Shown in pieces: positions 923-55,701 of a stretch of DNA of 64,000 nucleotides; positions within the stretch are counted from its first letter, which is position 1; every line of letters starts with the position of its first letter. The stretch spans positions 806,001 to 870,000 of the forward strand of contig NZ_JAMTCJ010000003.1 in the NCBI RefSeq assembly GCF_024171815.1. The letters run 5' to 3'. Under the pieces are notes generated by a model. It saw only the letters and a program-made list of their open reading frames with translations. It did not search any database and had not been told where the DNA came from. The DNA comes from Williamsia maris. Its GTDB lineage: Bacteria > Actinomycetota > Actinomycetes > Mycobacteriales > Mycobacteriaceae. The translations under genes and the position numbers were made by a program.

Positions 923-930
923 CCGGTCAG
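919..930. other. 12-bp perfect palindrome holding both convergent stop codons
   Basis: CTGACCGGTCAG reads the same on both strands. It contains the TGA of cinA (920-922) and, on the other strand, the TGA of the free-standing C-domain gene (929-927). It is too short and lacks a T-run, so it is not a convincing terminator. No other terminator lies between the two genes. Confidence 0.5.
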
Positions 931-2243
931 GCTCCGACGCTCGCCGACAATTCTCGTACCGACGACTCGGGCCGGTGCAGGAACTCGTGCAGCAGTCCTC
1001 CGAACGCGGCGAGGTGCCCCTCGATCTCCGCACCGGTGTACATCGTCGAATTACCGTGCAGGTCAACGACGATCGGCAGTCCGGCGCCGGCCTGATAGAG
1101 GTTGATGCGCAGATCGTCGAGGATGCCCGACGACAGGATGTGGTAGCCGACCGTCGCACCGTCGAGCGCCAACGGCTTGTCGAAGAACACCAGGTTCACG
1201 ATCGGACCGAACGACGTGGCGGTGTCGGCGAGGCCGGCCCGCTCGGCGATGTCGTCGAAGCGATACCGCTGTCTGCGAAGACATCCGGTGAGCTCGAGGG
1301 TCACCGCCGCGACAAGATCGCGGCCGGTGTGCGTGAGGACACCGTTCAGCCGGACCGGCAGCATGTTCGCGACCATCCCACCCGCCCGCTTGATCTTCGC
1401 CGTGGCCCGACCGGTCACCGGCAGGCTCAGGACTATGTCGTCACGGCCTGCGGTCACCGCCAGGTACGCGGCGAACGCTGCACCGAGCACCGCCGCGCTG
1501 GACGCCCCGAACTCGGTCGCCCGCTCGTCGAGCAGGCGTTGGTCGTCGGCGGGCATGACCATGCTGCGCACCTCGTGGTGCGGCGCTAGTCGGCCCGACG
1601 ACGGGGTCTGCGCCAGGCTGACGCGCTCGGGCAACCCCGAGACCCGCTCGGTCCAGTACTCGGCGTCGGCCACCCGACGGCTGCTGTCGCGATATTTCTC
1701 GTCGTCGGCCACCACCTCGGCGACCGTCGCACGCGGCGCCACCTCGTAGGTCTCACCCCTCGTCGACGCGTTGTACCGGTCGACCGCCTCGTGCAGGCAC
1801 GTCAACGCGGCGAACCCGTCGAAGGCGATGTGGTGGCCCCGCAGGTACCAGAACGTGCGGTCGTCGGCGACGCGCAGGAACGCCGACACCGCCATCTGAT
1901 CGGTCGTGACGTCCATCAACGCCTCGTGATCGGCCCGCATCCAATCATGAGCGGCAGCAACCGGATCCGACTCATGTCGGACATCGACGGTGTGGACGTC
2001 GAACGGCACGCTCGGGTCGATGTACTGCACGGGATGCCCGTCGACGAGCTCGAAGCGCGAGTACGCGGTCTCCAGCACGCGCGCCCCCGCGATGACGCCG
2101 GCCCGGAACAGTTCGCGGTCGAACCGGCGGTCGACGTCGGTGATGTCGAGATAGTGCGCGACCACCACCGAGTAGTCGTCCTGCAGATGTTCGGCGTCGA
2201 ACATGTTCCGCTGCGACGCCGTCAGGCCGAACGTCTCCCGCAT
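927..2243 (-). CDS. Free-standing NRPS condensation-domain protein (paralogue of the starter C domain)
   Basis: 438 aa, the length of one complete condensation domain and nothing else. It opens with LTASQRNMF (core C1) and carries an intact HHxxxDG motif, HHIAFDG, near residue 138. Stretches such as VAHYLDI, RGHHIAFDGF, LSLPVTGRA, GMVANMLPVR, GPIVNLVFFD and DDLRINLYQA are shared with the first C domain of the 2,700-aa synthetase and not with the internal C domains. That marks it as a duplicate of the starter domain. It is the last gene of the NRPS locus, 69 nt after the thioesterase-ending gene, and its ATG follows GGGGGAG at 5 nt. The role is inference: a trans-acting acyltransferase, for example adding an acyl chain to the N-terminus or to a serine hydroxyl, or a helper in release. 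The family fits amide or ester formation from a carrier-bound acyl group. Confidence 0.85.
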   Translation of the reverse strand: MRETFGLTASQRNMFDAEHLQDDYSVVVAHYLDITDVDRRFDRELFRAGVIAGARVLETAYSRFELVDGHPVQYIDPSVPFDVHTVDVRHESDPVAAAHDWMRADHEALMDVTTDQMAVSAFLRVADDRTFWYLRGHHIAFDGFAALTCLHEAVDRYNASTRGETYEVAPRATVAEVVADDEKYRDSSRRVADAEYWTERVSGLPERVSLAQTPSSGRLAPHHEVRSMVMPADDQRLLDERATEFGASSAAVLGAAFAAYLAVTAGRDDIVLSLPVTGRATAKIKRAGGMVANMLPVRLNGVLTHTGRDLVAAVTLELTGCLRRQRYRFDDIAERAGLADTATSFGPIVNLVFFDKPLALDGATVGYHILSSGILDDLRINLYQAGAGLPIVVDLHGNSTMYTGAEIEGHLAAFGGLLHEFLHRPESSVRELSASVGA

Positions 2244-2312
2244 ACCGTCTCCCCCACCTCAACATCGGTTGTGAACGCAGCGGCAGTCTAACGGCCGCAC
2301 CCGGTTCACACG

Positions 2313-5300
2313 TCAGGACCGGTTCAGCCGGCTCTCGATCTCCGGGCCGATGACCCGCAGCGCCTCGGTGTCGGCCATCCCCAGATGATGGGTGTCGACG
2401 TCGATCGCGGTGATCGTGCCCGTGACGTGGGGACGCCAACTCGACTGCACCACAGCGGGATCGTCTTTGTCCGCGGTGGCGACGAACAGCAGCATCTCCC
2501 CGTCGAACACAGCCGGCCGGTGCGTCGACCCGATCTGCGCGGCAGTGTCGAAGCTGATCATGATGCGGTCCACCTGCTCCGGCGACAGCAGCCCGAGCGC
2601 CGCGATCTGCTCACGCACCACGGCCGCGACCGCCCCGGGGTCCGACGCCTCGATCGCGTCGTCGATGTCGAACAGCGAGCGCCAACCGCCGAGCAGGTCG
2701 GCCACACCGGTGGACGGATCGTCGACCGGCGCGGTGACGGCGGGCGTGGCCCCCGGGTCGGCGACCGCGGCGTCCATGACACCAAGAAACGCGACCTCGT
2801 CACCGCTGCTCTGGATCTCGGTCGCCATCGTCTGCGCGATGTGCCCGCCGATCGACCACCCCAGCAGGTTGTACGGCCCCTGTGGTTGCACCCGACGGAT
2901 CTCGGCGACGTAGCGCCGGGCGAGTTCGGTGACCGACTCCGCCGACGCATCACCGTCGACAACCGACGGATCCTGCAGACCGTACAGCGGCCGGTCGGCG
3001 ATGTACGGTGCCAGTCCGCCGTAGAACCAGGCCAGTCCACCCGCCGGGTGCACACAGAACAGCGGCGGTCGCGACCCGGCGGACCGCAACGCGATGAGAA
3101 CCTCGTCGGTGAGGCCGCGTTCGGTCCCTGTTTCCGACAACCGGGCGGCCAGGCCGCGCGCCGTCGGGTCGACGAACAGCCACGGCAACTCGACCTTCCG
3201 CCCCGATCGCTCCCCGATGCGCGCCGCGAGCCGCACCGCGGACAGCGAGGTGCCGCCGAGGTCGAAGAAGCTCTGGGTGGCACCGACCTGCGCCGTGCCG
3301 GTCACCTCCGCCATCGCCTCGGCCACCAGGATCTCGAGCTCCCCTTGCGGCGCGACGAGTTCCGGTGCGGCCGGCCCGGATGTCGGGACGGGGAGTCGTC
3401 GCCGGTCGACCTTGCCGGTGGACGTCATCGGCATCGTGTCCAGCACGACGATCACCGCGGGCACCATGTGCCGGGGCAATCGGTCGCGCAGCTCGGCGCG
3501 CACCCGTGCGGGGTCGGGCGGATCGCCGGCCGGGTTCGCGGCGACAAAACCGATCAACCGCGCATCGCCCTGCGGGCCGGTGACACCCACGACCGCGGAC
3601 ACCGACACGTCCGACCGCGCGCTGAGCGCCGCCTCGATGTCGCCGAGCTCGATGCGCTGGCCGTTGATCTTGACCTGGAAGTCATCTCGACCGCCGAACT
3701 CGAGCGCGGGACCGTCGGGGTCACCGACGTCGACCCAGCGGACCAGGTCGCCGGTGCGGTAGAGCACGGACCCGGGCGGGCCGTACGGGTCGGCGACGAA
3801 CCGCGTCGCCGTGAGATCGGGACGCCGGTGGTACCCGCGGGCGGTGGCGTCGCCGGCCAGGTAGAGCTCACCGAGCACCCCGCGCGGCACCGGGCGCAGA
3901 CGGTCGTCGAGGACCAGAGCGCGGAACCCGCGGATGGGGCGGCCGACGACAACCCGCCCACCCGACTCGAGGACGGCCGACGTCGAGGTGATGGTCGTCT
4001 CGGCGGGGCCGTACCAGTTCGACATCGTCCGGCCGGGAGCCCAGAGCGCAACCAGTTCCGGCGGGCACGCGTCGCCGGCGACACCCAGGTGGCGCAGGGA
4101 ACGCGCCTGGTCGGGATCGAGGGTGGCCAGCACCGCGGGCGTGATCATGGCGTGGGTGACGGCATGGTCGGTGATGACCTCGGTGAGGTCGTTGCCCGCG
4201 AACGCATCCGGCGGGGCCACCACCATCGTCGCGCCGAGCGCGACGGTGCCGATCACCTCGAACATCGACACGTCGAAGCTGAGCTGCGCCAGGTGCAGCA
4301 CGCGAGCCCGTTCCGGGTCCCCGATCCAGGACTGCCGTTGGTGGTCGACGAAATCGGCCAGACCCCGATGGGTGACCGCGACGGCCTTGGGCTTGCCGGT
4401 CGACCCCGACGTGTACATGAGGTAGGCCAGTCCGTCGGGGGTCAGATCGGCGGCGGGAACGGGGGTGTCGGGCTGGTCGGCGCCCAGCGTGCTCGACACG
4501 ACCCAGTCGGGTCCGATGCCCGCGACGTCGCCGAACGACTCCAGGGTGGTCAGGCCGAGGACCGCCCCGGACTCGGCGAGCATGTGTGCGACGCGTTCGA
4601 CCGGCAGCGCCGGGTCGACCGGCATCGGTGCCGCACCCGCCTTCCACACCGCCCACAGGGCGATCACCGCGTCCGCCGACCGCGGCATCCCGACGGCCAC
4701 GACGTCCTCCGGTCCGATGCCGCGCGCGCGCAGCGCCCGGGCAAGACGATCTGTGGCGGAATCGAACTCGCGCCGCGACCAGGTACGGTCACCGTCGATG
4801 AGCGCCGGGTGATCGGGGTCCAGCGCGCCCCGTGCGGCCAGGATCGCAGGCAGGGTCGCCGCGGTGACGGGCGCCGGTCCCACCGCGGGTACCAGCGCAC
4901 GACGGTCCGCGTCGTCGAGGATGTCGATGTCGCCGATCGGTGCCGTGGGGTCGGCGGCCATGCCGTCGAGGACCGTCAGCACGGTGTCGCGGAACCGTTC
5001 GATCGTGGCGGGATCGAACAGGGCTGCCGCGTAGACGATCTCACCGGAGATGGTCGGGAACGTCTCGTCGTCCGCGGCCCACTCGGTGAGTGCGAGCGTG
5101 AGATCCACCTTGGCGGGCTGTTCGCCGATGTCCACGGGGGTGATCTCGAGACCCTCGATGCCGATCGCCGGGGCACCGGATCCGGTGAGATAGTTCAGGG
5201 CGATCTGATAGATCGGGGCGTGCGCGGTGGAACGCGCGGGAGCCAACCGGTCGACGAGCAGCTCGAACGGGATGTCGGCGTGGGCGAACGCACCGGTGTC

Positions 5301-6270
5301 GGCGCGACGCACCCGTTCCATCAGCGCCAGCGCGGAGTCGCCGGGCCGATGCGCGGTCCGCAGGGCCAGCGTGTTGACGAACATGCCGACCAGGGGCTCG
5401 ATCTCGCGGCGGCCGCGTCCGGCGATGGCCGCGCCGATCACCACGTCGTCGACCCGGGCCAGCCGGGCGACGGCGGTGGCGAGCGCGGCGTGCACGACCA
5501 TGAACGGGGTGCTGTTCGCCTGCCGTGCGAACGCGACGACGGCCGCGCTGCGTCGGTGACCGAGCTCGATCGGGATCTGACCACCGGTGGTGTCCATGAC
5601 GGCCGGTCGCGGCCGATCGGCGGGCAGCTCGATGGAACCGGGGGCCTCGGCCAACGTCGTGGACCAGTACGCGAGTTGCTGCCCCAGAACCGATTCGGGG
5701 TCGTCGACGGCACCGAGCACCTCGTGCTGCCACAGGGCGTGGTCGACGAAGGTGATCTCCGGTGCGGGTAGCACGCCCGGTGCGCCGTCGACCGATCCGC
5801 GGCGCGCGGTGTACGCCGTCAGCATCTCCCCCGCGAGGATGCCCAACGAGTGCGCGTCTCCGGCGATGTGGTGCACCACCAGGACCAGCAGGTGCTCGGG
5901 GATTCCCGGGACGGGTGACGCCGCGAGCCGTGCGCGGATGGGCAGTTCCCGGGTGACGTCGAACCCGGATCCGATGATCGCCATCGCCGCTGCCGCGTCG
6001 TCGCCGACGCGCCAGTCGAGTCGTCGACGGGCCGTCTCGGGGTCGAGGACCCGCTGCCCCGGCTCGCCGCCGGCGAGCGGGAACACGGTCCGCAGCGGCT
6101 CGTGTCGCAACATCACGTCGTCCAGCGCGCTTCGCAGGGCCGCCTCGTCGAGGTCGCCGACGATGCGCAGCGCGATCGGGATGTTGTAGGCGGTCGAGGT
6201 GACGTCGAACTGGTTGAGGAACCAGATGCGGCCCTGCGCGTGGGACAGCGGTATGCGCTCCGGGCGGTCG
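2313..6270 (-). other. NRPS module 14: C-A-T-TE
   Basis: Residues about 12418-13735. The C domain (PLSHAQGRIWF) carries HHIAGDA, with alanine where glycine normally ends the HHxxxDG motif. The A domain (FDVSMFE, WYGPAETT, GKVDRRRLP) has a code reading DVFMGAWITK, unassigned. Carrier FFDLGGTSLSAVRL. The thioesterase covers about 3110-2330: FCVHPAGG, the nucleophile motif GWSIGG and a histidine region THHLGMAD near the C-terminus. It would release the finished peptide by hydrolysis or ring closure; the sequence does not say which. Confidence 0.88.
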
Positions 6271-9200
6271 CGGCGGATGAGCGGGATCTCCGACACCGTC
6301 GACTGCGAGACACGCTGCGACAGTTCGCGAACGGTCGGGTGGTCGAAGAGTTCGCGCACCCCGACCTCCACATCGAGGGCCGCACCGATGCGGGCGACGA
6401 CCCGCATCGCCGACAGCGAGTTGCCACCCAGTTCGAAGAACCCGGTGGTCGTCGACACCCGGTCGACGCCGAGGACGTCGGCGACGATCCCCGCGACGAG
6501 GTCCTCGACAGGGGATCGTGGCGATTCGACGACCCCGCCGCCGAGGTGCGTCGGGCCGGTCTCGGGAGCAGGCAGGGCGCGGCGGTCGATCTTGCCCGCC
6601 GAGTTGTGGGGGAACTCGTCGAGAACCACCCACATGGTGGGGCGCATGTAGACCGGGAGTCGCTGTGCGACATGGTCTCGGACCCCGTCGAGAGCGGCCG
6701 GGTCGAGGACGGCCGGGTCGTGGGTGATCGGGCCGGACAGGTATCCGACAAGGGAGTCACCGGCGGCGGTCGTGACGACGGTGGCCGCGGCAACGGTCAC
6801 CCCGGGCGCCGCCATGAGCACCGTCTCGATCTCGCCGAGCTCGATGCGCTGTCCGCGCAGCTTGACCTGGAAGTCACCGCGGCCCAGGTACTCCAGCTCG
6901 GAATAACGGTTCCACCGGACCAGGTCGCCGGTGCGGTAGAGGCGGGCGCCGCTGCCGCCGGGGTCGGCGACGAAGCGGTCTGCGGTGAGGTCGGGGCGGG
7001 AGGCGTATCCGCGGGCCAGCTGCACGCCACCGAGGTAGAGCTCGCCGACGACCCCGACCGGGACCGGGGCCAGCCGTGCGTCGAGCACGCGGGTGATGGT
7101 GCCCGCCATCGGCGCACCGATCGCGATGACCGTGTCGTCGTCGGTGACGGTGTGTGCGGTGACCTCGACCGCGGCCTCGGTGGGGCCGTACAGGTTGCGG
7201 ATGACGGCTGCGGGCACGATCGCGGCCATGGCGTGTGCGGTAGCCGCGGGCAGCGCCTCACCCGAGGCGAGTACGCGCCGCAGCGAGGCGAGTCCGGCGA
7301 TCTGCTCCTCGGTGAGGAACTCGACGAACAGCGCCATCATCGACGGCACGAAATGGACGGTGGTCACGCGGTGGTCGCGCACGAGGGACGCGATATGGGC
7401 GGGGTCGGCGTGCCGGCCGGGCTCGGCCAGCACGAGTCGTGCGCCGGCGATGAACGGGCCGAACAGCTCCCCCACCGACACGTCGAAGGTGATCGGCGTC
7501 TTCTGCAGGACGACGTCGTCGCCGTCCAGCCCGTCGAGGGCCTGCATCCACCGCAACCGGTTCGCGATGGCGCGGTGCGAGACCGTCACGCCCTTGGGGC
7601 GACCGGTCGACCCGGACGTGAAGATCGTGTACGCGGCGTCGTCGAGCCCGACCGAGCCGACCAGGACGTCGGCGCGCGGCGGCCCGGCCCCGTCGGCGAC
7701 GGGCGCCGAACAGTCCACGGTCTGGGTGTCGGTCGCGCCGATCTCGGGCATCGGCCATCCCGCGGGGCCGACGAGAACCAGTCCGACGCGGGCGGTGTCG
7801 ATCATGTACCGGACGCGTTCGGCCGGTGCGTCGACGTCGATCGGGACGTACTGAGCGCCCGCGCGCACGACGGCGTGGACGGCGACCATCATCTCGATCG
7901 AGCGGGGCAGACACACGCCGACCGCGTCGCCCGCACCGACACCGCGGGCGATCAGGGTGCGGGCCAGCGAGTCGGTGTACGCCCCGAACTCGCGGTAGCT
8001 CAACGTCCGTCCGGCGACGACCACCGCGGCCGCGTCCGGGGTCCGTGCCCGCTGCGCGTCGAGCAGCTCGAGGAGAGTGCTCGGCGGGGCCGCCTCGGCG
8101 CCGGACGACATGGCCTCCAACGCCCGACGTTCCGCGGGGTCCAGGATATCGACGTCGCCGACGACGGCCGACGGCGACGAGACGAGCGCGTCGAGAACGC
8201 GCAGCAGTCGCTGAGCGATGACGTGGACCGTCGGTTCGTCGAACAGGTCGGTGGCGTAGACGATCTCGGTGGTCCAGGGATCACCCGCCGGCGCGGTCGC
8301 GACGGTGAGGGTCAGGTCCAGTCGCGCGGCCACCTCGTCGGTCGGCATCTGCTCGACCCGCAGGGCCGCCGTCTGATCGCGCGCCGCGTCGCCCACCGAC
8401 TGCTGGTGCTGCTGCATCGACAGCATCACCTGGCTCAGCGGTGCGAACGACTCGGACCGGGTGGGCGCCAGGCGTTCCACCAGATGTTCGAACGGCAGGT
8501 CCGCGTGGCCGAACGCGTCCACGTCGACGTCCCGGACACGGGCGAGGAACTCCGACAGCGACATCGCCGGGTCGACGCGGGTGCGCAGCACGAGGGTGTT
8601 GACGAACATGCCGACGAGGTCGTCGAGGGCGGCGTGTCCTCGGCCGGCGACCGGGGTGGACACGACGATGTCGTCGCCGCCCGACACCCGCGCGAGCAGC
8701 GCGGCCAGGGCAGCGTGCACGACCATGAACTCGGTCGCGCCCTGAGCCCGTGCGACATCGGCGATCCGTGCGGCCGTCTCCGCCGGGATGTCGAACTGCA
8801 TCCGCGCACCGTGCTGCGACGCCACCGCGGGCCGGGGGCGGTCGGTGGGCAGGGTGATGACGTCGGGGATGCCGTCCAGTCGCGCCGACCAGTGGGCGGC
8901 CTGTGCGCTCAGCGTCGACGCCGGGTCGTCGACCGATCCCAGGACACGTTGTTGCCACAGTGCATAGTCGGCGAACTGCACCGGCAACGGGGCGAACTGC
9001 GGTGCGACGCCCCGGGCGCGGGCCTCGTAGGCCGTGACGACATCGCCGACGAGCGGGCCGACCGACTCGCCGTCGACCGCGATGTGGTGCAGCGCCAACG
9101 CCAGCACGTGGTCGCCGGCGCCGACGGTGACGACCCGTCCGCGGATGGGCAGGTCCGAGGTCACGTCGAATCCACGACGCAGCAGCTCCGCGACAGCGGA

Positions 9201-12200
9201 CTCGTTCTCGGTGACCGACCAGTCGAGCTGCTGCTCGGCGTCGGCGACGCTGCGCACCCGCTGGTACGGGCGTCCGCCCGTCGACGGGTACACGGTGCGC
9301 AGGACCTCGTGGCGGCCGAGCACGTCGCCGATCGCGAGTCCCAGCGCCGCGACGTCGAGGTCGCCGACGAGTCGTAGCACCACCGGGATCGTGTAGGCGA
9401 TCGAGGACGGCTCGAAGCGGTTGAGGAACCAGATCCGTTGCTGCGCATTGGACAGCGGTATGAGTTCCGGCCGCGGTCCGGCGAGCAGCGGGGTGCTCGC
9501 CGTCGGTGCGCCGTCCGGTCGGTGACCCCGGACCCGGGTGACGAGACCGCGGACGGTGGGCGCCTCGAACAGGTCGCGGATCGTCACGCGGGTCCCGAGG
9601 GCCTCTATGGCGCGGGCGGTGACCCGGGTGGCCGACAGGGAGTTGCCGCCGAGGTCGAAGAAGTCTGCGGTGACGCCGATCTCGGACCGGTCGGTGCCGA
9701 GCACGTCGGCCACGATCGCGGCCAGCGTCCGCTCGTCGTCGTCGGCCGGCGGCTCGACGCTCCGGGTGATGTGGGCGGCCTGATCCGGGTCGGGCAGGGC
9801 GGCGCGGTCGAGTTTGCCCACCGCGGTGCGCGGCATGGCGCCGAGCGCGGTGATCGAACTCGGCACCATGTAGGCCGGGACGAGGTCGGCGAGGTGGGTG
9901 CGTAGCTGGTCCGGGGTGACCGGGTGGGTCGGCTCGACGTATGCGGCGAGGGCGCGTACCGGGTCACCGACACCGACGACGGCGGCGCTGCGCACCGACG
10001 GATGGGTCGCAAGAGCCGACTCGATCTCACCGAGTTCGATGCGCTGGCCACGCATCTTGATCTGGAAGTCCGAGCGCCCGGCGTAGACGAGGTCGCCGGT
10101 GGCGGTCCGACGGACCAGGTCACCGGTGCGGTACATCCGGGCACCGACCGCCTCGCCCGCGGTCTCGAACGGGCAGGCGACGAAGCGGTCGGCGGTGAGG
10201 TCGGATCGACCGTGGTAGCCGCGGGCCAACGCCGCACCGAGGACGTAGAGCTCACCGATCACGCCGACGGGCACCGGGCGCAGTCGGTCGTCGAGGACGA
10301 CGACATCGGATCCGGGCTGCGGCAGACCCAGCGGGACGACGTCGTCCGGGGCGATTGGCTCCGATGTCAGACACGCCATCGTGGTCTCGGTGGGACCGTA
10401 GGAGTCGTAGAACGCCCGGCTCCCGGCCCAGCGCCGCATCTCCGCGTCCGGGACGCCTTCACCGCCGGCGAGCACATGGGTCAGCGACACCGCTGCCGGG
10501 TCGGGCAGGGAGGCGAGCACGCTGGTCACGATCGCGGTGTGGGTGACCGCGTTCTCGGTGATCCAGCGGGCGAGTTCGTCGCCGCCGATGATGTCGGGCG
10601 GGGTGACCACCAGGGTGCCGCTGCCGACGAACGCACCGAGCACCTCGAGCATCGACACGTCGAAGCCCGGGGAACTGATGCCGAGCCAGCGCGCCGACCC
10701 GTCGCTGTGGTGCCGACTCCGCAGGGTGGCGGCCATGCCGGCGATGCCGGTGTGTGTCACCGACACCCCCTTGGGCACCCCGGTCGATCCGGAGGTGAAG
10801 ATCAGGTAGGCGGCGTTGTGCGCACGCAGCGGACGGGCGCGGTCGGCGTCGGTGAGCGCGGCATCGGACACCTCGCCGCGGTCGATACGCGCCTGCAGGT
10901 CACCCAGGGCGGCGGTGTCGACGGTCAGCCAGTTGATGCCGTGGTCGGTGACGGGTGCGTCCGATCCCGAGATACCGACGCGTGCACCGCTGTCGGCGAG
11001 GATCCGGCGGATGCGGTCGCTGGGGTGACGCGGGTCGACGGGTGCGTAGGTCGCGCCGGTCTTCGCGATGGCCCACAGCGAGACCTGGACCAGAGCGGTG
11101 CGCGGTAGGGCGCTGACGACCACGTCCTCGGGTCCGACACCGCGCGCGACGAGGTCACGCGCCAGGGCGGAGCTCAACGAGTCGAGCTCGGCGAACGTCA
11201 GAGCGTGATGGTCGTCGACCACGGCGATCCCGTCCGGACGGCGCGACGCCGCACGGGCGAGGAGGTCCGCGAGCAGAACCGGTTCGACGGCAACGGCATC
11301 CGGGTGCGGGATGAGTGCGTCCCGTTCGTCGTCGCCGACGATGTCGATGTCACCGACCGGGATCTCAGGTCGGGCCGTCGCGGCGGCGAGGACGTCGACG
11401 AGTCGACCGGCGAACCGCTCGACCGTCGCGGCGTCGAACAGATCGGTCGCGTAGACCACGCTGCCGCGCCACGGACCCGGACCGCCGGTCGCGATCCCGA
11501 CGGTCAGATCGACCTTCGCGGTGGTCACCTCGGTCTCGACGGGCTCGACGGTCAACCCGTCCACGGTCACCGCGCCCGAGGCGCCCTCGTCGTTCGACAC
11601 GGTCAGCACGACCTGGGCCAGCGGCGCGAACGCCTCGGATCGGACGACGTCGAGTCGGTCGACGAGCTCCTCGAACGGGACGTCGGCGTTGCCCAGGGCG
11701 TCGATGTCGACGCGACGGACCTCGTCGAGCACGTCGACGAAGCGGTCGTGCCCGGACACCCGGGTGCGCAGGACGAGGGTGTTGACGAACATGCCGACGA
11801 GGTCGTCGAGTGCGGCGCGTCCGCGACCGGCCACCGCGGTGGAGACGACCACGTCGTCGGTGGTGGCGAGACGCGCGAGCAAGGCGGCGAGCGCGGCGTG
11901 CATCAGCATGAAGTCGGTGACGCCGTGCTCACGGGCGACCAGGGTTGCCGCCCGGGCGATCTCGGACGGGATCGTGAACTCGACGCTCGCGCCGTGCGAC
12001 GACGCGACCGGCGGACGCGGCCGGTCGGTGGGCAGCTCGAGCAGAGCGGGCGCCCCGGCGAGCTGGGTGTCCCAGTACGCGAGCTGTGCGCGCACGGCGG
12101 TGGCCGCCCGCGTGTCGGCCCCGTCCGCACCGAGGTCATGCTCGGCCCCGGTGTCGGCGTCGTGACCCAGCGCCCGGTGCTGCCACAGCGCGTAGTCGGC

Positions 12201-43520: not shown

Positions 43521-45255
43521 GCCCGGTCGGCCGTTTCCGGAGCCGTAGCGGCGCCGGCGATCCGGCACGCATTGACCTGCAGTTGCGCCAGCACGGCATC
43601 GAGGACCTCGACACCGTCGTCGGCGATCTCGGGAACCACTGCGGTCAGGGCCATGGTGAGAGCACCATACGTGTCGCCGTCGGGCAGCGTCATCATCAGT
43701 GCCGTTGCCATCGAATCGATCTCACCGAAGCTGACCTCGACGCCGCCGTACTCGACGGCGGTCGCGTCGGGATCGATCTCGGTGGCCACGGCCACCAGGT
43801 GCGCGAGGTCGGCCGGATCGCTGCCTGTACCCGCCGCCGACTCCTCGATGGCGCCGAGCAGAACCGCGGGATCGGTCGGGTGATCGAGCGCGAGGTCGAT
43901 GTCGCCGACGATGTGGGTGGGATCCGAGGCCACCGTCCGCAGGATCTGTCCGTAGCGGGCGACGATGCGTTCCACCGTCGTCGCGTCGTACAGGTCGGTC
44001 GCGAAGATGACCCGGCCCGCCATCGCGCCGCCGTGGTCGGCGCCGCTCGGATCGACCGGGAACAGCATGAACTCGAGGTCGACCTTGGCCGCGACCGACG
44101 CGAGCGGTTCCGGGGTGATCCGCAGACCGTCGAGTTCGACGGTCGGGAACACGATGTTCTGGAACGCGAACATCACCTGGAACACCGGGTTGTGCGAGCC
44201 GGTCGTCGAGGAGACCACCCGCGAGACGATCTCGTCGAACGCGACGTCGGCGTGGGACATGTCGGCGAGGTCCTCACCGCGCACCCGGTGCAGCAGCGTC
44301 TCGAACCCCTCCCCCGACCGCACGCGGGTACGCAGGGCCAGGGTGTTGACGAACATCCCGACCATGTCGTCGAGGGTCTCGTCGTCCCGACCGGCGTACG
44401 GCGTCCCGACGACCACGTCGTCGTGTCCCGACAGCCGCGACATCAGCACCGCGAACGCGGCGTGGACGACCATGAACAGGGTGCTGTTGTGTTCACGGGC
44501 AATGGATTCCAGCGCGTCGACCACCGGCGCCGCGATCTCGAAATCCACCACGTCGCCGCGCGAACTCGGGGTCGTCGGACGTGGTCGGTCGGTGGGCAGG
44601 GCGATGCGGTCGGGCGCCCCGGCCAGGCGACGGGTCCAGTAGGCCAGCTGACGGTCCGCGTGCGTCGTGCCGTCGTCGGCGACGGTGGCGAGCCGCTCGC
44701 GCTGCCACACGACCCAGTCCGCATAGTTCAGCGGGAGCGGTCCCCGCGTGGTCCGGTGGCCGGTGAGGTGCGCGGTGTAGCCGTCGACGAGGTCGCGGGC
44801 CAGCGGCATCAGCGACGCACCATCCGCGCTGATGTGGTGCACCACGAACACCAGGAGATGGTCGTCGGGTCCGACCCGCACCACCGCGGCCCGGACCGGG
44901 ATACCGGTGGTGAGGTCGAATCCGCGGTCGGTGACCGCGGCGATGGCGGCGGGGATCTCCTCGGGCGCGGCGGCCGACCGGCGGGCGGTGAGGTCGACCA
45001 GCGGGACCACGAAATCGTCGGCCACGGCAGCGGCCGGGCGGATCACCTGTACGGGTTCGCCCCCCAGCAACGGGTAGGTCGTCCGCAGGGTCTCGCGGCG
45101 CATCACCAGGTCGGTGATGGCGGCGCGCAGTGCGGGCACGTCGACCGCGCCACTCAGGCGCAGCGCGAGGGAGACGTTGTACGACGACGAGTCGGGGTCG
45201 GCGCGGTTGACCAGCCACATGCTGCGCTGCACACCGGAGACCGGGACGACCTCGG
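43517..45255 (-). other. C domain of module 3 and trailing A-domain-like fragment
   Basis: C3 (PVSGVQRSMWLVNRAD, HHISADG) ends near 43990. After a short linker, residues from about 2598 on (TEIDPDATAVEYGG, VSFGEIDSMATALM) look like the first part of an adenylation domain that breaks off without any catalytic motif. The following protein starts with a comparable fragment. Probably a docking device or a relic of domain splitting. Confidence 0.6.
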
Positions 45256-48200
45256 AACGGGGACGCACGGTCAGCGGTGGGGTGACGGCACCACGCGGGT
45301 CGGCGGTGGTGACCGCACCCACGAGCGTCGCGACGGTCGGGTTCTCCAGCAGTGTCCGCACCGAGATCCGGCGGTCCAGCAGTGTTTCCAGCCGTGCGAC
45401 CACCTTGGTGGCCGACAACGAGTTGCCGCCCGCGGCGAAGAAGTTCTCGAACACCCCGACCGAGTCGACACCGAGCACCTGGGCGAAGACGCCGGCGACG
45501 ACCGACTCCAGCTGGCTGCGCGGGGCCACCGAGTCCGGCGATGCGGTCAGCGTCACCGGGGGCAGCGCCGACCGGTCGATCTTGCCGACAGTGGTCAGCG
45601 GGAACTCGTCGAGGACGGCGACGGTGCGCGGGACCAGGTACGCGGGCAGTGCGCGGGCGGCGGCGTCGACGACGTGCTGCGGCACCAGGACTCGGCCCGG
45701 CGCCGGGGTCACGTAGGCCACGAGCACGTCCTCCCCGCCCGGGGTGGTGGTGGCGACGGTCAGCGCGGCCTCGACGCCGTCGATCGACGTCAGGACGTCG
45801 TCGATCTCACCGGGTTCGACGCGTACGCCGCGGATCTTGATCTGGAAGTCGGTGCGGCCGTGGTACAGCAGATCGCCTGCGGCCGTGCGGGTCACACGGT
45901 CACCCGATCGATACATCCGCGTCGCCCCGGCGTCGAACGGGTTGGCCACGAACCGAGTGGCGGTGAGACCGGGACGGTCGTGGTAGCCACGGCCCAGCGC
46001 CGGGCCGGCCAGGTACAGCTCACCGGCGACCCCGTCGGGGACCGGACGCAACCAGTCGTCGAGGACCAGCGTGGTCATGCCGTCGATCGCGCGGCCGATC
46101 GTGACCGGTGGCCCGACCCGCATCGCCGACGTCGTGGTCGCGGTGATCGTGGCCTCGGTGGGGCCGTAGAAGTTGTGCAGGTCGCGCGACGCGCCCGCCC
46201 ATCGGCCGACGAGCTCCGGCGGGAGCTGCTCACCTGCGCTCGCCACGATCCGCAGGGTCGGGACCTGCGACGGCGCGATGGTCGCCAACGCCGACGGGGT
46301 CATCACCGCGTGCGTCACGCCGCGCTCGGCGATGAGCGCGGCGAGTTCGGGTCCGGCGAACACGTCCGGCGGGCTGATGACCAGTTCCGCGCCCGCGCAC
46401 AGGCCCATGATCATCTCGAACAGCGACACGTCGAAGCTCGGCGACGCGACGTGCAGCACCCGGCAGGTGCGGTCGCAGCTGAGCACCGCGGCCTGCGTCG
46501 CGACGAGATCGGCCAGTCCGGCGTGGGTGACCGCGGCGGCCTTGGGGCGCCCGGTCGAGCCCGACGTGAACAGCAGATAGGCGAGGTCGGCGGTGTGCAC
46601 CGGCCGACGCAGCTCGGACGGGTGGACACGAGATCCACTGTGTCCGGCGAGCCCGAGTTCGAACGACACCTCGTCGATGGCCAGCCACGTCATCGCCCGC
46701 CCGTCCGACGGGGGTGTCCCCAGTTCGAAGATGGTGAGCCCGAGCGTGGCCGTGCTGTCGGCGATCAGGGCGGCGCGTCGGGCGTCCGGCTGACGGGGGT
46801 CGATGGTGACGAAGGCCGCTCCGGTCTTCGCGACCGCGACGACCGCCATGACCGAGTGGTGCGATCGTCCGATGGAGATCGCGACGATCTGGCCGGGGCC
46901 GACGCCTCGCGAGATGAGTTCGCGGGCCAGCTCGTTGGTCCGGGACTCGAACACCGCCCAGGTGATCGACACCGCGCCCGACACCGCGAGGGCGTCCGGG
47001 TCGGCCGCCTCGGCGCCCGCCGCCAACAGCTCCGACAGCGTGCGGTGGGGATGCGACACAACCGACGACGTGGCCACGACCGCGGCCCGGTCGTCGAGGA
47101 GACCGATACGGCCCACCGGCGCCGACGGTGCGGCGACGACCGCACCCAACACGCGCCGCAGGTGATCGCCGAGCGTCCGGATCGTCGGGCCGTCGAACAG
47201 CGCCGTGGCGTAGTTGATCTCGATGGCGTAGCCGCGGGCAGACGTCCGGTCGGCCGGCTCGGTGACCGTGACGGTCAGGTCGTACTTCGCGGCCGGGACC
47301 CGTGCGTCGGGTCCGGCGTCGACGTCCGAGCGGATCGCGAGATCCGCCATCGGATCCGACTGCATCGTCAGCGCGACCTGGAACAGCGGGGCGTGCCCGG
47401 ACGAGCGCTGGGGTGCCAGTGCGTCCACGACCCGCTCGAAGGGCACCTCCGCGTGGGCCATGGCACCGGCGACACCCCGGTGCGAAGCGGTCACGAGGTC
47501 GGCGACGGACTGCGCGGGACGGATCCGGGACCGTAGGACGACGGTGTTGACGAACATGCCGACCATGTCGGCGGTCGCCGGGTCGTCGCGACCGGCGATC
47601 GCGCTGCCGATGCTGACGTCGTCGGTGCCCGCGAGCCGGCTGAGCACGACGGCCAGGCCGGTGTGCAGGATCGCGAAGGGGGTGACCGCGAGATCGGTGG
47701 CCAGACGCCGGATCCCGGCGGACAGATCGGCGTCGAGCGTGGTGTCGAGGTACGCGCCGCGACCGTCGGCGACCTGGGGTCGGGGTCGGTCGGTGGGCAG
47801 GGTCAACAGTCCCGGGGCGCCGTCGAGCTCGCGCCGCCAGAACTCGAGCCCGCCGGTCAGCACCGGGGTGGGGTCCGCCAGACCGCCGAGGCGGGCCTGC
47901 TGCCGCAACGCCACCTCGGCGAAATCGATGGGCAGTGGGGCGAACTCGGGTGCGAGCCCGGCCCGACGCCGGTCGTAGGCGTGGCGCAGGTCGCCGATCA
48001 GCGGGCGTAGCGACTGGCCGTCGGCGGCGATGTGGTGGACGACCAGGACCGCGATCGACTCGGCCGATGTCGCGTCGGAGCCGGACGAGGGCAGCAGGTA
48101 CGCGCGGAACCCGATCTCGTGTTCGAGGTCGAACCCGGTCCCGACCAGGTCGGCGATGGTCGCCTCGGCGTCTACGGCCGACGCGGACCGCTCGCCGCGC

Positions 48201-51200
48201 CCCTGGGCGTCGAGAACCCGGGCGTCGAGACCAGGTGCGACGGTGGCCATGTCGAGGACCTGCTGGACCGGTTCACCGTCGACCGACGGGAACACGGTGC
48301 GCAGGATCGCGTGCCGTTCGACGACGTCGCGCACCGCCGCGGCGAACGCAATGACGTCGACGTCGATACCGAGGCGGACCGCGCCGGACATGTTGTAGGT
48401 CGGTGCGGACGGGTCCATCCGGTTGATGAACCAGAGCCGGGTCTGCGCGTGCGACAACGGGATCGCCGCAGGGCGCGCACGCTGCGGTGTCGCCGCGGCG
48501 ACCTCGTCCAGCGGGTGGGTACGGGTGGCCAGCTCCCCGATCGACGGACTGTCGAAGACATCGGCCAGGTCGACGGCGAGCCGGTGTTCGGTGCGCGCCA
48601 CCGACACGAGTCGGGCGGCGATCAGCGAATCGGCGCCGAGGGCGAAGATGTTGTCGCGCATGCCGACCCGCTCGATCTGCAGGAGGTCGCGAACGAGGTC
48701 GGCGAGCGCGATCTCGACCGCCGACTCCGCCTCCCGATGCGGGGTGTCGGAGCGCATCACGGGCGCGGGTAACGCGCGGCGGTCCAGCTTGCCCGACCCG
48801 GTCACGGGGAGCTCGTCGAGCACGACGATCGCCGCGGGCACCATGTGCGAGGGCAGGCGGCGACGGCAGCGGTCGGCGATCACGTCGACGTCGAGCTCGG
48901 CATTGCCGCGTACGTAGGCCACCAGGGTGACGGCGGGACCGAGGTCTGAGCGCGCGAGCACGGCTGCGGCCTCGACACCGGGGACGGTCGTGAGCACCGA
49001 CTCGATCTCGCCGAGTTCGACGCGACGCCCACGGATCTTGACCTGCAGATCGGTGCGACCCAGGTACTCGATCTCGCCGGTGGCGTTCCAGCGCACCAGG
49101 TCACCGGTCCGGTACATCCGCGTGCCGGCGCCGTCGAACGGGTTCGCGACGAACCGGTCGGCGGTGATCCCGGGGGCACCGACGTACCCGGTCGCGAGTT
49201 GTCGCCCCGCGAGGTAGAGCTCGCCCGCGACCCCGGTGGGCATCGGGCGCAGAGATGCGTCGAGGACGTAGACCTCGGTCTCGGCGACGGGGCGCCCGAT
49301 CGGCACGGGGTCGGCGCCCGGCGCGACGCGGTGGGAGGTGACGTCGACCGCCGCCTCGGTCGGGCCGTAGAGGTTGACCAGTTCCGCGGTCGACGACCCC
49401 AGCAGCCGCCCGGCGGTGGCCGCACCGAGTGCCTCGCCCGAGGTGAACACCGTGCGCACCGACGCAGGCAGCGACGCCGCTCGGCCGTCGGCCGACACCA
49501 CGTCGAGATAGACGTCGAGCATGGACGGCACGAAGTGGGCCACGGTCACGCCGCGTTCGGCCATCAGGTCGTGCAGGTGGTCGGGGTCGCGGTGCCCACC
49601 CGGGCGGGCGATGACCATGCGCGCCCCGGTGCGCAACGGCCAGAACAACTCCCACACGGACACGTCGAAGGTGGTCGGCGTCTTGTGCAGGACGGCGTCG
49701 GCCCCGTCGATCCGGTGGTCGTCCTGCATCCAGTCGAGTCGGTTGAGCACGGCACGGTGTCCGACCTCGACACCCTTGGGCGTGCCGGTGGAACCGGAGG
49801 TGAAGATGATGTATGCCGCGCCGCCGGGGGCGATCGTGAGTTCGGTGGCGTCCGACGGGTCGGGAACCGGATGGGCCGGGTCGAATCCGATCGACACCAG
49901 GTACGCGTCGTCGACACGCAACCGGGCCGAGACGGTCGCCTCGATCGCGTCGGTGCGTTCGCGGGGGTCGGCCGGGTCGACCGGGACGTAGACCGCTCCG
50001 AGGGTGAGCACGGCGTACACCGCCGCGACCTGGGCGACACCACGGTCGAGCGCGACCACGACGCGGTCACCGGGGATCACGCCGTCTCGACGTAGTCGTT
50101 GCGCGAGGTCGGTGCGCAGGTCGGCGAATGCGCGGTAGCTCAGCCTGTGCCCGGGCGCGTCGATCGCGACCGCGTCGGGGGTGGCCGCGACCTGCGTCTC
50201 GAACCCCGCGAGGAGGTGCTCACCGGGGGTGTCGGCACGCCGGGGTCCGCGTCCCCGGGCGATCAGGGCGGCGTGTTCGGAGTCGAGCAGCACCGACAGG
50301 TCGGCGATCGGGGTGTCCGGTGACCCGAGCAGACGGTCGACGAGGAGCAGGAAGCGCTCGAGGTGGGTGTCGAGCTCGGCCTGGTCGTACAGGTTCGGGT
50401 TGCCGTGCAGGTCCACGACCAGGCACTCGCCCGGGCTCGCCTGGTAGAGGTTGATCCGCAGATCGTCCAGGGTTCCCGAGGACAGGATGTGGTAGTCGGC
50501 CCGGGCCCCGTCGATCTCGATGCGACGGTCGAAGAAGACGAGGTTGACGATCGGGCCGAACGACGCGGCGGTGGCGTCGGCCATGCCCGCGGCCATCCGG
50601 ATGTCCTCGTAGCGGAACCGCTGGTGCCGCAGGGCGCCGGTCAGTTCGAGTTGCACCTGCGCGATCAACCCACGCCCGGTTGCACCGGCGACACCGTCGA
50701 TCCGGACCGGCAGCATGTTGGCGACCATGCCGCTGCCGCGTTTCACCCGGGCGCTGGCCCGCCCGGTGACCGGCAGGCTGAGCACGACGTCGTCGACGCC
50801 GGTCATCCGCGACAGGTAGGCGGCGAAAGCAGCGGTCAGCAGGGCGGCCGCCGAGGTGTTCCCCGCGGCGGCGGTGGTGTCCACCAGGTCCTGGCGGGTG
50901 CGACTGATCCGCGTGCTGGCCATCACGTTGGCCGGTGAGAGGGGTGCGTTGCTCGCCCGCTGCGACAGGGTCGGCCCCTCGGGCAGGTCGGCGACGCGGG
51001 CGACCCAGTGCTCGCGGTCGCTCTGGCGTCGGGTGCTCTGCGCGTATCTGTCGTCGTCGGCCGAGATCTCGGCGAGTGATGCCCGGGCGGGTGAGACGTG
51101 TTCGGTGCCGGCGAGCATCGCGTTGTAGCGGTGCACAGCCTCGTGCAGGCTGTTGAGCGCGGAGAAGCCGTCGAAGGCGATGTGGTGGCCCCGCAGGTAC

Positions 51201-51622
51201 CAGAAGCAGCGATCGTCGGCGACGCGGATCAGCGCGGAGATCGCGACTCGGTCGGTCTCGAGATCCATCGGACGCCGATGATCGGCGTCCATCCACGCAC
51301 GGGCGGCCGCGACCGGGTCGGGCTCGGAACGCAGATCGAGGGGTTCCACGCGGAAGTCCACGCTCGGGTCCACCCACTGCATCGGGACGTCGTCGACGAC
51401 CACGATGCGGGTGAAGGCGGACTCCAGCGACCGTGCGGCGTCGAGCACCGCGGCGCAGAACAGGTCGCGGTCGAGCGGCCGACCCTCGTCACGGATGTCG
51501 AGGTAGTGCGCGACGGTGATCGAGTAGTCGGTGTGCAGCCGCTCGGCGAACCACATGCCCCTCTGGGCAGCGGTCAGCGGGATCGGATCGGTCGTCAGAC
51601 CGGCGACGCGCTCGCCGTCCAT
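43517..51622 (-). CDS. Initiating NRPS: starter C-A-T, C-A-T, C
   Basis: About 2,701 aa. Order: starter-type C domain (LTAAQRGMWF, HHIAFDG), A1 with the serine code DVWHFSLVDK, carrier IFALGADSLIAARL (GADS instead of the usual GGxS), C2 (HHIAADG), A2 with code DVFVAAFITK (unassigned), carrier FFAAGGNSLSATKV, C3 (HHISADG), then an A-domain-like remnant. A C domain at the very start with no A-T before it usually joins an acyl group to the first amino acid, so the product is probably an acyl-peptide. The frame is open to 51889. I prefer the ATG at 51622 because GGGGG sits 7 nt before it and the C domain begins about 15 residues later; ATGs at 51652 (after GGTGA) and 51748/51745 are alternatives. 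The stop overlaps the GTG of the giant gene. Confidence 0.92.
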   Translation of the reverse strand: MDGERVAGLTTDPIPLTAAQRGMWFAERLHTDYSITVAHYLDIRDEGRPLDRDLFCAAVLDAARSLESAFTRIVVVDDVPMQWVDPSVDFRVEPLDLRSEPDPVAAARAWMDADHRRPMDLETDRVAISALIRVADDRCFWYLRGHHIAFDGFSALNSLHEAVHRYNAMLAGTEHVSPARASLAEISADDDRYAQSTRRQSDREHWVARVADLPEGPTLSQRASNAPLSPANVMASTRISRTRQDLVDTTAAAGNTSAAALLTAAFAAYLSRMTGVDDVVLSLPVTGRASARVKRGSGMVANMLPVRIDGVAGATGRGLIAQVQLELTGALRHQRFRYEDIRMAAGMADATAASFGPIVNLVFFDRRIEIDGARADYHILSSGTLDDLRINLYQASPGECLVVDLHGNPNLYDQAELDTHLERFLLLVDRLLGSPDTPIADLSVLLDSEHAALIARGRGPRRADTPGEHLLAGFETQVAATPDAVAIDAPGHRLSYRAFADLRTDLAQRLRRDGVIPGDRVVVALDRGVAQVAAVYAVLTLGAVYVPVDPADPRERTDAIEATVSARLRVDDAYLVSIGFDPAHPVPDPSDATELTIAPGGAAYIIFTSGSTGTPKGVEVGHRAVLNRLDWMQDDHRIDGADAVLHKTPTTFDVSVWELFWPLRTGARMVIARPGGHRDPDHLHDLMAERGVTVAHFVPSMLDVYLDVVSADGRAASLPASVRTVFTSGEALGAATAGRLLGSSTAELVNLYGPTEAAVDVTSHRVAPGADPVPIGRPVAETEVYVLDASLRPMPTGVAGELYLAGRQLATGYVGAPGITADRFVANPFDGAGTRMYRTGDLVRWNATGEIEYLGRTDLQVKIRGRRVELGEIESVLTTVPGVEAAAVLARSDLGPAVTLVAYVRGNAELDVDVIADRCRRRLPSHMVPAAIVVLDELPVTGSGKLDRRALPAPVMRSDTPHREAESAVEIALADLVRDLLQIERVGMRDNIFALGADSLIAARLVSVARTEHRLAVDLADVFDSPSIGELATRTHPLDEVAAATPQRARPAAIPLSHAQTRLWFINRMDPSAPTYNMSGAVRLGIDVDVIAFAAAVRDVVERHAILRTVFPSVDGEPVQQVLDMATVAPGLDARVLDAQGRGERSASAVDAEATIADLVGTGFDLEHEIGFRAYLLPSSGSDATSAESIAVLVVHHIAADGQSLRPLIGDLRHAYDRRRAGLAPEFAPLPIDFAEVALRQQARLGGLADPTPVLTGGLEFWRRELDGAPGLLTLPTDRPRPQVADGRGAYLDTTLDADLSAGIRRLATDLAVTPFAILHTGLAVVLSRLAGTDDVSIGSAIAGRDDPATADMVGMFVNTVVLRSRIRPAQSVADLVTASHRGVAGAMAHAEVPFERVVDALAPQRSSGHAPLFQVALTMQSDPMADLAIRSDVDAGPDARVPAAKYDLTVTVTEPADRTSARGYAIEINYATALFDGPTIRTLGDHLRRVLGAVVAAPSAPVGRIGLLDDRAAVVATSSVVSHPHRTLSELLAAGAEAADPDALAVSGAVSITWAVFESRTNELARELISRGVGPGQIVAISIGRSHHSVMAVVAVAKTGAAFVTIDPRQPDARRAALIADSTATLGLTIFELGTPPSDGRAMTWLAIDEVSFELGLAGHSGSRVHPSELRRPVHTADLAYLLFTSGSTGRPKAAAVTHAGLADLVATQAAVLSCDRTCRVLHVASPSFDVSLFEMIMGLCAGAELVISPPDVFAGPELAALIAERGVTHAVMTPSALATIAPSQVPTLRIVASAGEQLPPELVGRWAGASRDLHNFYGPTEATITATTTSAMRVGPPVTIGRAIDGMTTLVLDDWLRPVPDGVAGELYLAGPALGRGYHDRPGLTATRFVANPFDAGATRMYRSGDRVTRTAAGDLLYHGRTDFQIKIRGVRVEPGEIDDVLTSIDGVEAALTVATTTPGGEDVLVAYVTPAPGRVLVPQHVVDAAARALPAYLVPRTVAVLDEFPLTTVGKIDRSALPPVTLTASPDSVAPRSQLESVVAGVFAQVLGVDSVGVFENFFAAGGNSLSATKVVARLETLLDRRISVRTLLENPTVATLVGAVTTADPRGAVTPPLTVRPRSEVVPVSGVQRSMWLVNRADPDSSSYNVSLALRLSGAVDVPALRAAITDLVMRRETLRTTYPLLGGEPVQVIRPAAAVADDFVVPLVDLTARRSAAAPEEIPAAIAAVTDRGFDLTTGIPVRAAVVRVGPDDHLLVFVVHHISADGASLMPLARDLVDGYTAHLTGHRTTRGPLPLNYADWVVWQRERLATVADDGTTHADRQLAYWTRRLAGAPDRIALPTDRPRPTTPSSRGDVVDFEIAAPVVDALESIAREHNSTLFMVVHAAFAVLMSRLSGHDDVVVGTPYAGRDDETLDDMVGMFVNTLALRTRVRSGEGFETLLHRVRGEDLADMSHADVAFDEIVSRVVSSTTGSHNPVFQVMFAFQNIVFPTVELDGLRITPEPLASVAAKVDLEFMLFPVDPSGADHGGAMAGRVIFATDLYDATTVERIVARYGQILRTVASDPTHIVGDIDLALDHPTDPAVLLGAIEESAAGTGSDPADLAHLVAVATEIDPDATAVEYGGVEVSFGEIDSMATALMMTLPDGDTYGALTMALTAVVPEIADDGVEVLDAVLAQLQVNACRIAGAATAPETADRA
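45260..48475 (-). other. NRPS module 2: C-A-T
   Basis: Residues about 1050-2121. LCL-type C with HHIAADG. A domain with FDVSLFE, MTPSALATI and FYGPTEATIT; code DVFVAAFITK, not a recognised code. Carrier FFAAGGNSLSATKV. No E domain. Confidence 0.85.
48480..51622 (-). other. NRPS module 1: starter C-A-T, serine code
   Basis: Residues about 1-1048. The first C domain differs from all internal ones and is close to the free-standing C protein at 927-2243. The A domain reads DVWHFSLVDK (FDVSVWE, VFTSGEAL, LYGPTEAAVD), the serine code. The carrier serine lies in GADSLIAARL near residue 998. Confidence 0.87.
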
Positions 51623-52947: not shown

Positions 52948-52950
52948 GGG

Positions 52951-54493
<1,543 letters not shown>

Positions 54494-54510
54494 CTGCTAC
54501 TCCCTCCTGC

Positions 54511-55350: not shown

Positions 55351-55390
55351 GAGTCTTCTTGTCCTCTACTTCTTCTCGATCCGCCCGGCG

Positions 55391-55699: not shown

Positions 55700-55701
55700 T
55701 C

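Follow-up and report, generated by a model that had tools for sequence, protein, structure and literature searches.

What might a nonribosomal peptide synthetase (NRPS) line make when it is seated among ribosomal genes, and what might hold it together when the break between its two synthetases falls inside a module? Both questions are raised by the window, a 64,000-nucleotide stretch of DNA from a Williamsia-type genome.

A three-gene line beside the S10 operon

The window carries a complete three-gene, 14-module NRPS line, with all three genes on the minus strand (Table 1). Domain HMMs trained on the window's own domain copies give the order Cs-A-T-C-A-T-C for protein A, A-T-(C-A-T)x2-E-(C-A-T)x4-E-(C-A-T)x5-TE for protein B and a single Cs for gene 3. 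The two synthetases together hold 14 A, 14 T and 14 C domains and one TE, with E domains in modules 5 and 9 and a DCL-type C immediately after each. These HMM results bear out the original prediction of three genes with 14 carrier and 14 A domains, and its placing of the E and DCL-type domains. The modules are collinear C-A-T units with intact core motifs: A-domain matches run to near-full model length in 14/14, HHxxxD is present in every C and E domain, and the GGxS or GADS serine in every T. As also predicted, the line opens with a starter-type C, which groups with the stand-alone C of gene 3 and apart from LCL domains, and closes with a single thioesterase (PF00975, E 1.6e-24; GWSIG motif). 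Pfam domain types agree over genes 1 and 3 and residues 1-4000 and 10501-13751 of gene 2.

Gene 1 starts at the ATG at 51622, in a frame that stays open up to the GTG at 51889, and the GTG start of gene 2 overlaps the TGA of gene 1. The coordinates of gene 2 return the predicted length of 13,735 aa. This size had been called exceptional; it is unusual but not unique, since the same genome has other open frames of 11,325 and 8,012 aa and one relative has an ORF of 17,906 aa. Kolossin A synthetase, encoded by a single bacterial NRPS gene with 15 modules, is a precedent for size; it differs from the window's NRPS in organism and architecture. Gene 3 lies within the span first predicted and was absent from the stated reasoning. 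Its identity as a free-standing starter C goes beyond that account, as do the duplication of modules 5-8, the seat in the ribosomal operon, and the break between C and A together with the MINI pair flanking it.

Table 1. Features of the NRPS locus and its upstream neighbour, in window positions.
Feature	Position	Strand	Content
S10-operon genes rplC to rpsQ	51991..57044	-	upstream neighbour, not NRPS
Gene 1 (protein A)	43517..51622	-	Cs-A1-T1-C2-A2-T2-C3-MINI(TAIL)
Module 1	48527..51589	-	starter C, A1 (Ser code), T1
Module 2	45320..48469	-	C2, A2 (DVFVAAFITK), T2
First half of module 3 (protein A)	43907..45253	-	C3
MINI TAIL at the C terminus of protein A	43529..43852	-	profile place G000:C3:849529-849852
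Gene 2 (protein B)	2313..43520	-	MINI(HEAD)-A3-T3, modules 4-14, TE
MINI HEAD at the N terminus of protein B	43167..43520	-	profile place G000:C3:849167-849526
Second half of module 3 (protein B)	41415..43151	-	A3 (DVGNIAMVYK), T3
Module 4	38211..41354	-	C4, A4 (DAFFCALIWK), T4
Module 5	33486..38147	-	C5, A5 (DVPHFSLVEK), T5, E
Module 6	30294..33392	-	DCL-type C6, A6 (Ser code), T6
Module 7	27096..30233	-	C7, A7 (Ser code), T7
Module 8	23925..27035	-	C8, A8 (DALFLGAIIK), T8
Module 9, duplicate of module 5	19278..23858	-	C9, A9 (DVPHFSLVEK), T9, E
Module 10, duplicate of module 6	15993..19091	-	DCL-type C10, A10 (Ser code), T10
Module 11, duplicate of module 7	12759..15923	-	C11, A11 (Ser code), T11
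Module 12, duplicate of module 8	9540..12698	-	C12, A12 (DVLALGSMAK), T12
Module 13	6318..9467	-	C13, A13 (DVGHLSLVEK), T13
Module 14 and release	2316..6260	-	C14 (HHIAGDA), A14 (DVFMGAWITK), T14, thioesterase (GWSIG)
Gene 3	927..2243	-	free-standing starter-type C domain (438 aa; HHIAFDG)

Protein A sits between rplP/rpsQ and rplN in all 17 testable genomes (those in which a single contig carries protein A, rplP and rplN), which span three genera. Behind the S10-operon genes lies a terminator-like hairpin (51951-51923), a consensus match rather than proof of termination. Because this hairpin lies in between, we rejected simple read-through out of the ribosomal genes as the sole route of NRPS expression. 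A literature search combining rpsQ, rplN and nonribosomal peptide returned nothing relevant among titles and abstract openings.

The locus is not a chance arrangement, because a relative (G003) shares the architecture and has an open frame of equal length, and dN/dS between it and the window's genome (G000) is 0.017-0.568, below 1 in 46 of 46 domains. Domains missing from several modules would speak against the predicted line; we found no such gaps in the window, but three sister Williamsia genomes (G001, G004 and G007) have each lost three A domains. The A-domain remnants in modules 7 and 14 of sister genomes still show dN/dS of 0.36-0.39, so a ratio below 1 is by itself no proof of function. 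The sister losses adjoin neighbours of the same substrate, which makes A-domain sharing between modules directly testable.

Predicted product and the stand-alone starter domain

With code positions in the A domains set by motif, five of the 14 modules (1, 6, 7, 10 and 11) carry exactly DVWHFSLVDK, which we take to be the serine code, as in EntF; the five serine codes originally read thus hold. These five are the modules to which a substrate could be assigned, against nine (2-5, 8, 9 and 12-14) whose codes gave no assignment. By sequence comparison, modules 5-8 are duplicated into 9-12, the paired A domains being 67% (A5/A9), 67% (A6/A10), 62% (A7/A11) and 67% (A8/A12) identical. The residue order first proposed, acyl-Ser-X-X-X-(D)Z-Ser-Ser-X-(D)Z-Ser-Ser-X-Z'-X, may fairly be inferred, and the predicted product is probably a serine-rich lipopeptide of 14 residues. 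A literature search on the window's A-domain codes found no match. The adjacent genes checked by Pfam include no acyl-ligase, ACP or mbtH; the nearest mbtH lies about 50 kb off, beside a second NRPS. Putative lipopeptide NRPS clusters of Rhodococcus, of the same bacterial order, resemble the window in their starter C, many large NRPSs and Ser/Thr-rich predictions, their products being unknown, whereas neither MINI nor the rpsQ-rplN seat was found described in the parts of that report consulted (PMC5550956). The window's product would represent an uncharacterised serine-rich lipopeptide family, fixed beside the ribosomal genes of Williamsia and its relatives.

Gene 3 adds a second starter-type C. 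Its AF2 model (pLDDT 87.3) is predicted to fold best onto fatty-acyl starter condensation domains: the best 20 PDB fold matches are the CDA or RzmA starter C domains (PDB 4jn3, 5dua, 7c1s; for CDA, its first C) and ObiF1. A PapA-type acyltransferase was rejected as an identity for gene 3 on these top matches. The CDA and RzmA starter domains are N-terminal parts of megasynthetases, whereas gene 3, which follows the TE-bearing gene, encodes a protein of its own. Another comparison is OaaC, a free-standing single-domain C protein that takes a fatty acyl group off a carrier and works with small amines and a dedicated ACP in a discrete system; gene 3 belongs to a 14-module NRPS and OaaC to none (PMC13142362).

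Gene 3 might be a spare starter that stands in for the built-in starter C at the same Ser1, rather than a second acyltransferase. Its 56% identity to the built-in domain and its CDA/RzmA-like predicted fold agree with such a role, but the stand-alone C forms its own clade (6 rows, support 100/100), is as constrained as the built-in copy (dN/dS between G000 and G003 of 0.128 vs 0.122), and the built-in copy has an intact motif. We think the spare starter less likely than not.

A gene break inside module 3

The boundary between genes 1 and 2 divides module 3 between C3 and A3, and a domain that we call MINI lies on both sides of it, as a TAIL on protein A and a HEAD on protein B. The two profiles match each other (hhalign 95.5%, E 1.5e-8) and both match N-terminal ANL sequence (hhalign 93.6 and 93.7%). 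Between G000 and G003, dN/dS is 0.243 for TAIL and 0.119 for HEAD. MINI comprises about 100 aa, an adenylation-domain N-terminus followed by a unique tail: ANL N-terminus fills the first ~80 positions, and the shared segment past ~82 is absent from A domains. Judged by name, each of the 41 PDB hits with E <= 0.01 is an ANL enzyme, matched over profile positions 9-82. MINI ends before the first of the nucleotide-binding and catalytic motifs of a full ANL enzyme, and none occurs in the aligned rows. The predicted HEAD model is of moderate quality (mean pLDDT 71.2; residues 71-122 mostly 40-63); its PDB fold search gave nothing at E <= 0.001, the 50 best listed being ANL enzymes. No Pfam or NCBIfam model matched MINI, which is apparently an undescribed protein domain.

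If the locus were really a single unbroken gene, a frameshift introduced by sequencing or assembly could produce a stop/start overlap like the GTGA of the window. However, the A2 profile finds TAIL and HEAD, two separate full copies, at 10 of 10 junctions between proteins A and B in nine genomes, and at 11 of 15 such boundaries in other loci the second start lies 56-169 bases past the first stop. On these recurrent junctions and start spacings we rejected such an error as the cause of the split, leaving it a very small probability.

Elsewhere, the 20 MINI places examined in large ORFs comprise 14 pairs of C-TAIL and HEAD-A across a gene break, five C-MINI-A inserts and one HEAD alone. Among the 16 loci L073-L088, the analysis covered L077 (G019). 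MINI is not obligatory at breaks between C and A, because such breaks in G078 and G275 are without it. In a MINI tree (125 columns; 89 rows, near-copies included), six position classes require 11 label changes against a shuffled mean of 50.6, with TAIL and HEAD each falling short of a single clade (5 and 3 changes).

What MINI may do

MINI could be an inert scar of an A-domain N-terminus, surviving from recombination or from the loss of an A domain where C meets A, and have no role of its own. Its first ~80 positions are indeed plain ANL N-terminus, and the A-domain remnants of modules 7 and 14 in the sister genomes have dN/dS of just 0.36-0.39. A scar would sit poorly, however, with the common segment past ~82, the grouping of position classes across genera, the dN/dS of 0.03-0.38 for six copies in G000 and G003, and the free-standing copies that adjoin mbtH; we judge it quite improbable.

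Those free copies (14 of 17 MINI places examined in small ORFs adjoin mbtH), and the homology of MINI to A domains themselves, would equally suit an MbtH or A-domain-folding partner, or a regulator, that mimics the A-domain N-terminus. MbtH-like proteins (PF03621) are small NRPS partners encoded at the same places as free MINI copies. The free MINI at L051:17466-17900 and L051:18486-18851 have no PF03621 match, and a true mbtH overlaps or adjoins the free MINI ORFs of L051. Against a folding partner as opposed to a docking element stand the 14 of 20 large-ORF places where a tail and a head face each other precisely across a gene break, and the junction in the window, with no mbtH within about 50 kb; we think this role unlikely.

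Docking domains of the COM, beta-hairpin and four-helix types link one NRPS protein to the next where a gene break separates them; MINI, too, occurs at such a break. The known types are placed at borders of T or E with C and are not known to derive from A domains, whereas MINI pairs stand at boundaries between C and A and combine an ANL N-terminus with a tail. No docking-domain model was among the MINI search hits in Pfam and NCBIfam, and a literature search on docking domains and Rhodococcus turned up nothing relevant in titles and abstract openings.

On the reading we prefer, MINI may be a docking or assembly domain that holds split assembly lines together. Simple tail-head pairing does not account for the inserts and free copies. 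In a broader proposal, to which we give an even chance, MINI would define a new kind of assembly domain in NRPSs, derived from the A-domain N-terminus within one actinobacterial family: a TAIL/HEAD pair would let a module be divided between C and A, and the inserts and the free proteins encoded with MbtH would serve that interface where the module is left whole. Taken jointly, that the line builds a serine-rich 14-residue lipopeptide and that MINI holds split lines together is the reading we moderately favour. Docking by MINI would account for the division of very large NRPS lines within a module, and the MINI break between C and A would offer a new site at which NRPS lines could be cut and joined.

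Architecture and ribosomal setting of the locus

The locus comprises two synthetases, proteins A and B, and a gene for a stand-alone starter-type C domain (gene 3), in a genome of 4.93 Mb on five contigs, of which the window covers C3:806001–870000. The original prediction of 14 modules, with E domains in modules 5 and 9, a DCL-type C domain directly behind both and a single terminal TE, was reproduced by models built from the window's own domain copies, all 14 modules being complete. The predicted giant protein of about 13,735 aa also proved to be an open frame of exactly that length. Pfam matches to the protein parts submitted (genes 1 and 3, and residues 1–4000 and 10501–13751 of gene 2) are consistent with this architecture.

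Genes of the locus
Feature	Coordinates	Strand	Remarks
Protein A (gene 1)	ATG 51622, stop 43517	minus	ORF; frame open to GTG 51889
Protein B (gene 2)	GTG 43520 to 2313	minus	ORF, 13,735 aa
Stand-alone C domain (gene 3)	2243–927	minus	438 aa

HHxxxD is present in all C and E domains, the serine in all T domains, and A-domain matches are near full length in 14 of 14 modules. Against a relative of identical architecture (G003), all 46 domains show dN/dS between 0.017 and 0.568. C14 (window positions 4935–6260) reads HHIAGDA in place of HHxxxDG, a feature common to the sister Williamsia genomes G001, G004 and G007. ARAGORN and Rfam (gathering thresholds) returned no matches across the whole window.

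The locus sits inside the ribosomal operon: rpsQ immediately precedes it, and it lies within the 82 kb that separate rplP from rplN. We searched for rplP and rplN in 21 chosen genomes (8 Williamsia, 12 of genus g9, which may be Gordonia, and 1 of genus g13). Protein A lies between them in all 17 genomes with the three genes on one contig (5, 11 and 1, respectively), a count that leaves out G005 and G129, where they fall on different contigs. Counted by copies, 19 of 20 are inside the gap and one, a second copy in G293, is not. The protein-A search of Williamsia genomes gave no close match in G002 or G006, and the gap in G006 measures 12.4 kb. Among the matches listed, 28 of 29 g9 genomes match at E 1e-110 or better. 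Genome G249 (C1:860001–1000000; L054–L060) carries two tandem protein-A clusters within one rplP–rplN gap, and an NRPS ORF of 17,906 aa.

Downstream of the locus lies a CinA gene, and the 10 kb beyond it (L053), read by eye, hold candidate genes for glycosyl transferase, PapA-like and iron/haem ABC transporter proteins. The region upstream of the ribosomal genes encodes a two-component system, DUF4153 and DUF4442 proteins, an alpha/beta hydrolase and a GntR regulator.

Predicted peptide and lost A domains

Pocket-code positions were fixed by motif. Modules 1, 6, 7, 10 and 11 carry DVWHFSLVDK, which we take to specify serine; modules 5 and 9 carry DVPHFSLVEK, and their A domains are 48–60% identical to the serine ones. 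EntF and FscH are among the PDB relatives of A6, but its best match, scored over two domains, is linear gramicidin synthase, so PDB similarity alone is no proof of serine. Modules 5–8 and 9–12, whose A domains are pairwise 67, 67, 62 and 67% identical, are by sequence a block duplication, and (D-Z)-Ser-Ser-X is therefore expected twice in the predicted product. Module 1 reads DVWHxSLxDK in each of the ten protein-A genes whose codes were read (from nine genomes, five Williamsia and four g9), despite module numbers that vary widely among these genomes.

Three sister genomes have lost A domains in three modules each. Module 10 lacks one in G004 and G007, as does module 13 in G001, and modules 7 and 14 retain A remnants in all three. 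Motifs are intact in the adjoining C and T domains, which show dN/dS of 0.16–0.43 between G004 and G007. In the window, 6/7 and 10/11 are pairs of adjacent serine modules, and we hypothesize that a single serine A domain could load both carriers of such a pair. Between G004 and G007, dS is 0.19–0.35 from C8 to T13 versus 0.42–0.80 for the remaining domains of the comparison, which suggests recent exchange or gene conversion.

A small domain at the C–A boundary

Module 3 is split: protein A stops behind C3 and protein B starts ahead of A3. A domain of some 100 aa (MINI) sits on either side of the split, here named TAIL in protein A and HEAD in protein B. In hhalign the TAIL and HEAD profiles pair at 95.5% (E 1.5e-8), and each also matches the A-domain N-terminus (93.6 and 93.7%). 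A PDB search with a nine-row MINI profile gave 41 matches at E ≤ 0.01, every one named as an ANL enzyme and confined to profile positions 9–82; the segment behind position 82 is outside these matches and particular to MINI. Pfam and NCBIfam searches with MINI gave sub-cut-off hits only. The HEAD model (pLDDT 71.2) resembles the N-termini of ANL enzymes, in most cases over some 49 residues, but this fold support is weak because every match falls short of E 0.001 and A-domain N-termini were already part of the alignment behind the model. Six MINI copies show dN/dS of 0.03–0.38 between the window genome and G003; A-domain remnants of the sister genomes also show 0.36–0.39.

At E 1e-3 all eight Williamsia genomes contain MINI matches; the weaker ones are mostly A-domain N-termini. 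Across the family, 104 of the 201 genomes, belonging to 17 of the 31 genera, give matches at E 1e-11, some of the weakest possibly plain A-domain N-termini, one of which reached 8.8e-12 elsewhere. In a class sample scored at up to 12 candidates per genome, where weaker or rarer copies could be missed, 16 of 345 genomes match at E 1e-9; the seven matches of the window's family extend beyond position 95, and the nine from other families end at 78–82.

We read 37 MINI places, picked from the family-wide matches for spread of genera. The 20 in large ORFs comprise 14 C-TAIL/HEAD-A pairs at a gene boundary, five C-MINI-A inserts and one lone HEAD. Of the 17 in small ORFs, 14 adjoin mbtH (11 ordered TE, mbtH, MINI in g9; three ordered MINI, mbtH, MINI, starter module in genus g11), two stand behind an E domain, and one is a C-TAIL whose frame is broken, from an incomplete genome. 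The free proteins behind mbtH in g9 share the terminal motif L-R-[AS]-V-[GSV] in 12 of 14 cases. A second giant synthetase of the window genome (11,325 aa; C3:873–907 kb) has two copies inserted between C and A; just ahead of this synthetase, mbtH is flanked by two free small MINI genes.

With nine assembled genomes and G019 added, the total is 89 copies, close relatives included and classes assigned by position: 26 TAIL, 26 HEAD, 9 inserts and 28 free. The 61 encoded in one ORF with NRPS domains all lie behind C and/or ahead of A, and HEAD follows TAIL in 25 of 26 cases. The classes cluster on the MINI tree, with 11 label changes against a possible minimum of 5 and a shuffled mean of 50.6; TAIL needs 5 changes and HEAD 3, and free copies ahead of mbtH fall among the TAILs.

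We moderately favour, as the best explanation of the locus as a whole, one that includes MINI as a docking or assembly domain. That MINI is a new NRPS assembly-domain class, derived from the A-domain N-terminus and serving the C–A interface as pairs, inserts and free proteins, we hold at even chances. Our confidence in both is held there because C|A breaks lacking MINI occur in G078 and G275, and because simple pairing leaves inserts and free copies unexplained; we count both against docking. In each of these genomes it is a second C|A gene break (p 42 kb in G078, p 52 kb in G275) with overlapping frames, where a frameshift is possible. Our keyword searches of open-licence literature brought up nothing on MINI, the window locus or an NRPS between rpsQ and rplN.

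The stand-alone C domain and other large synthetases

Gene 3 is 94% identical to its counterpart in a Williamsia sp. MAG. The stand-alone C domain is present in six of eight Williamsia genomes, lies after gene 2 in all five genomes read (the window genome, G001, G003, G004 and G007), and forms a separate clade on the tree. Four g9 genomes showed no such ORF behind the TE within flanks of differing length, G275's end falling outside coverage. The predicted model of the stand-alone C domain (pLDDT 87.3) best matches the starter C domains of CDA and RzmA, some solved with C8-CoA, and we infer that it may perform a second acylation.

The second giant synthetase (L050, L051) has nine modules, a terminal E domain and no TE, and ORFs of similar size (about 11.3 kaa) occur in other genera too. 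Close to it is a wax ester synthase/DGAT-type protein (L052:4364–5848). A third large NRPS open frame, of 8,012 aa with mbtH nearby, lies on contig C2 of the window genome at 927–952 kb.
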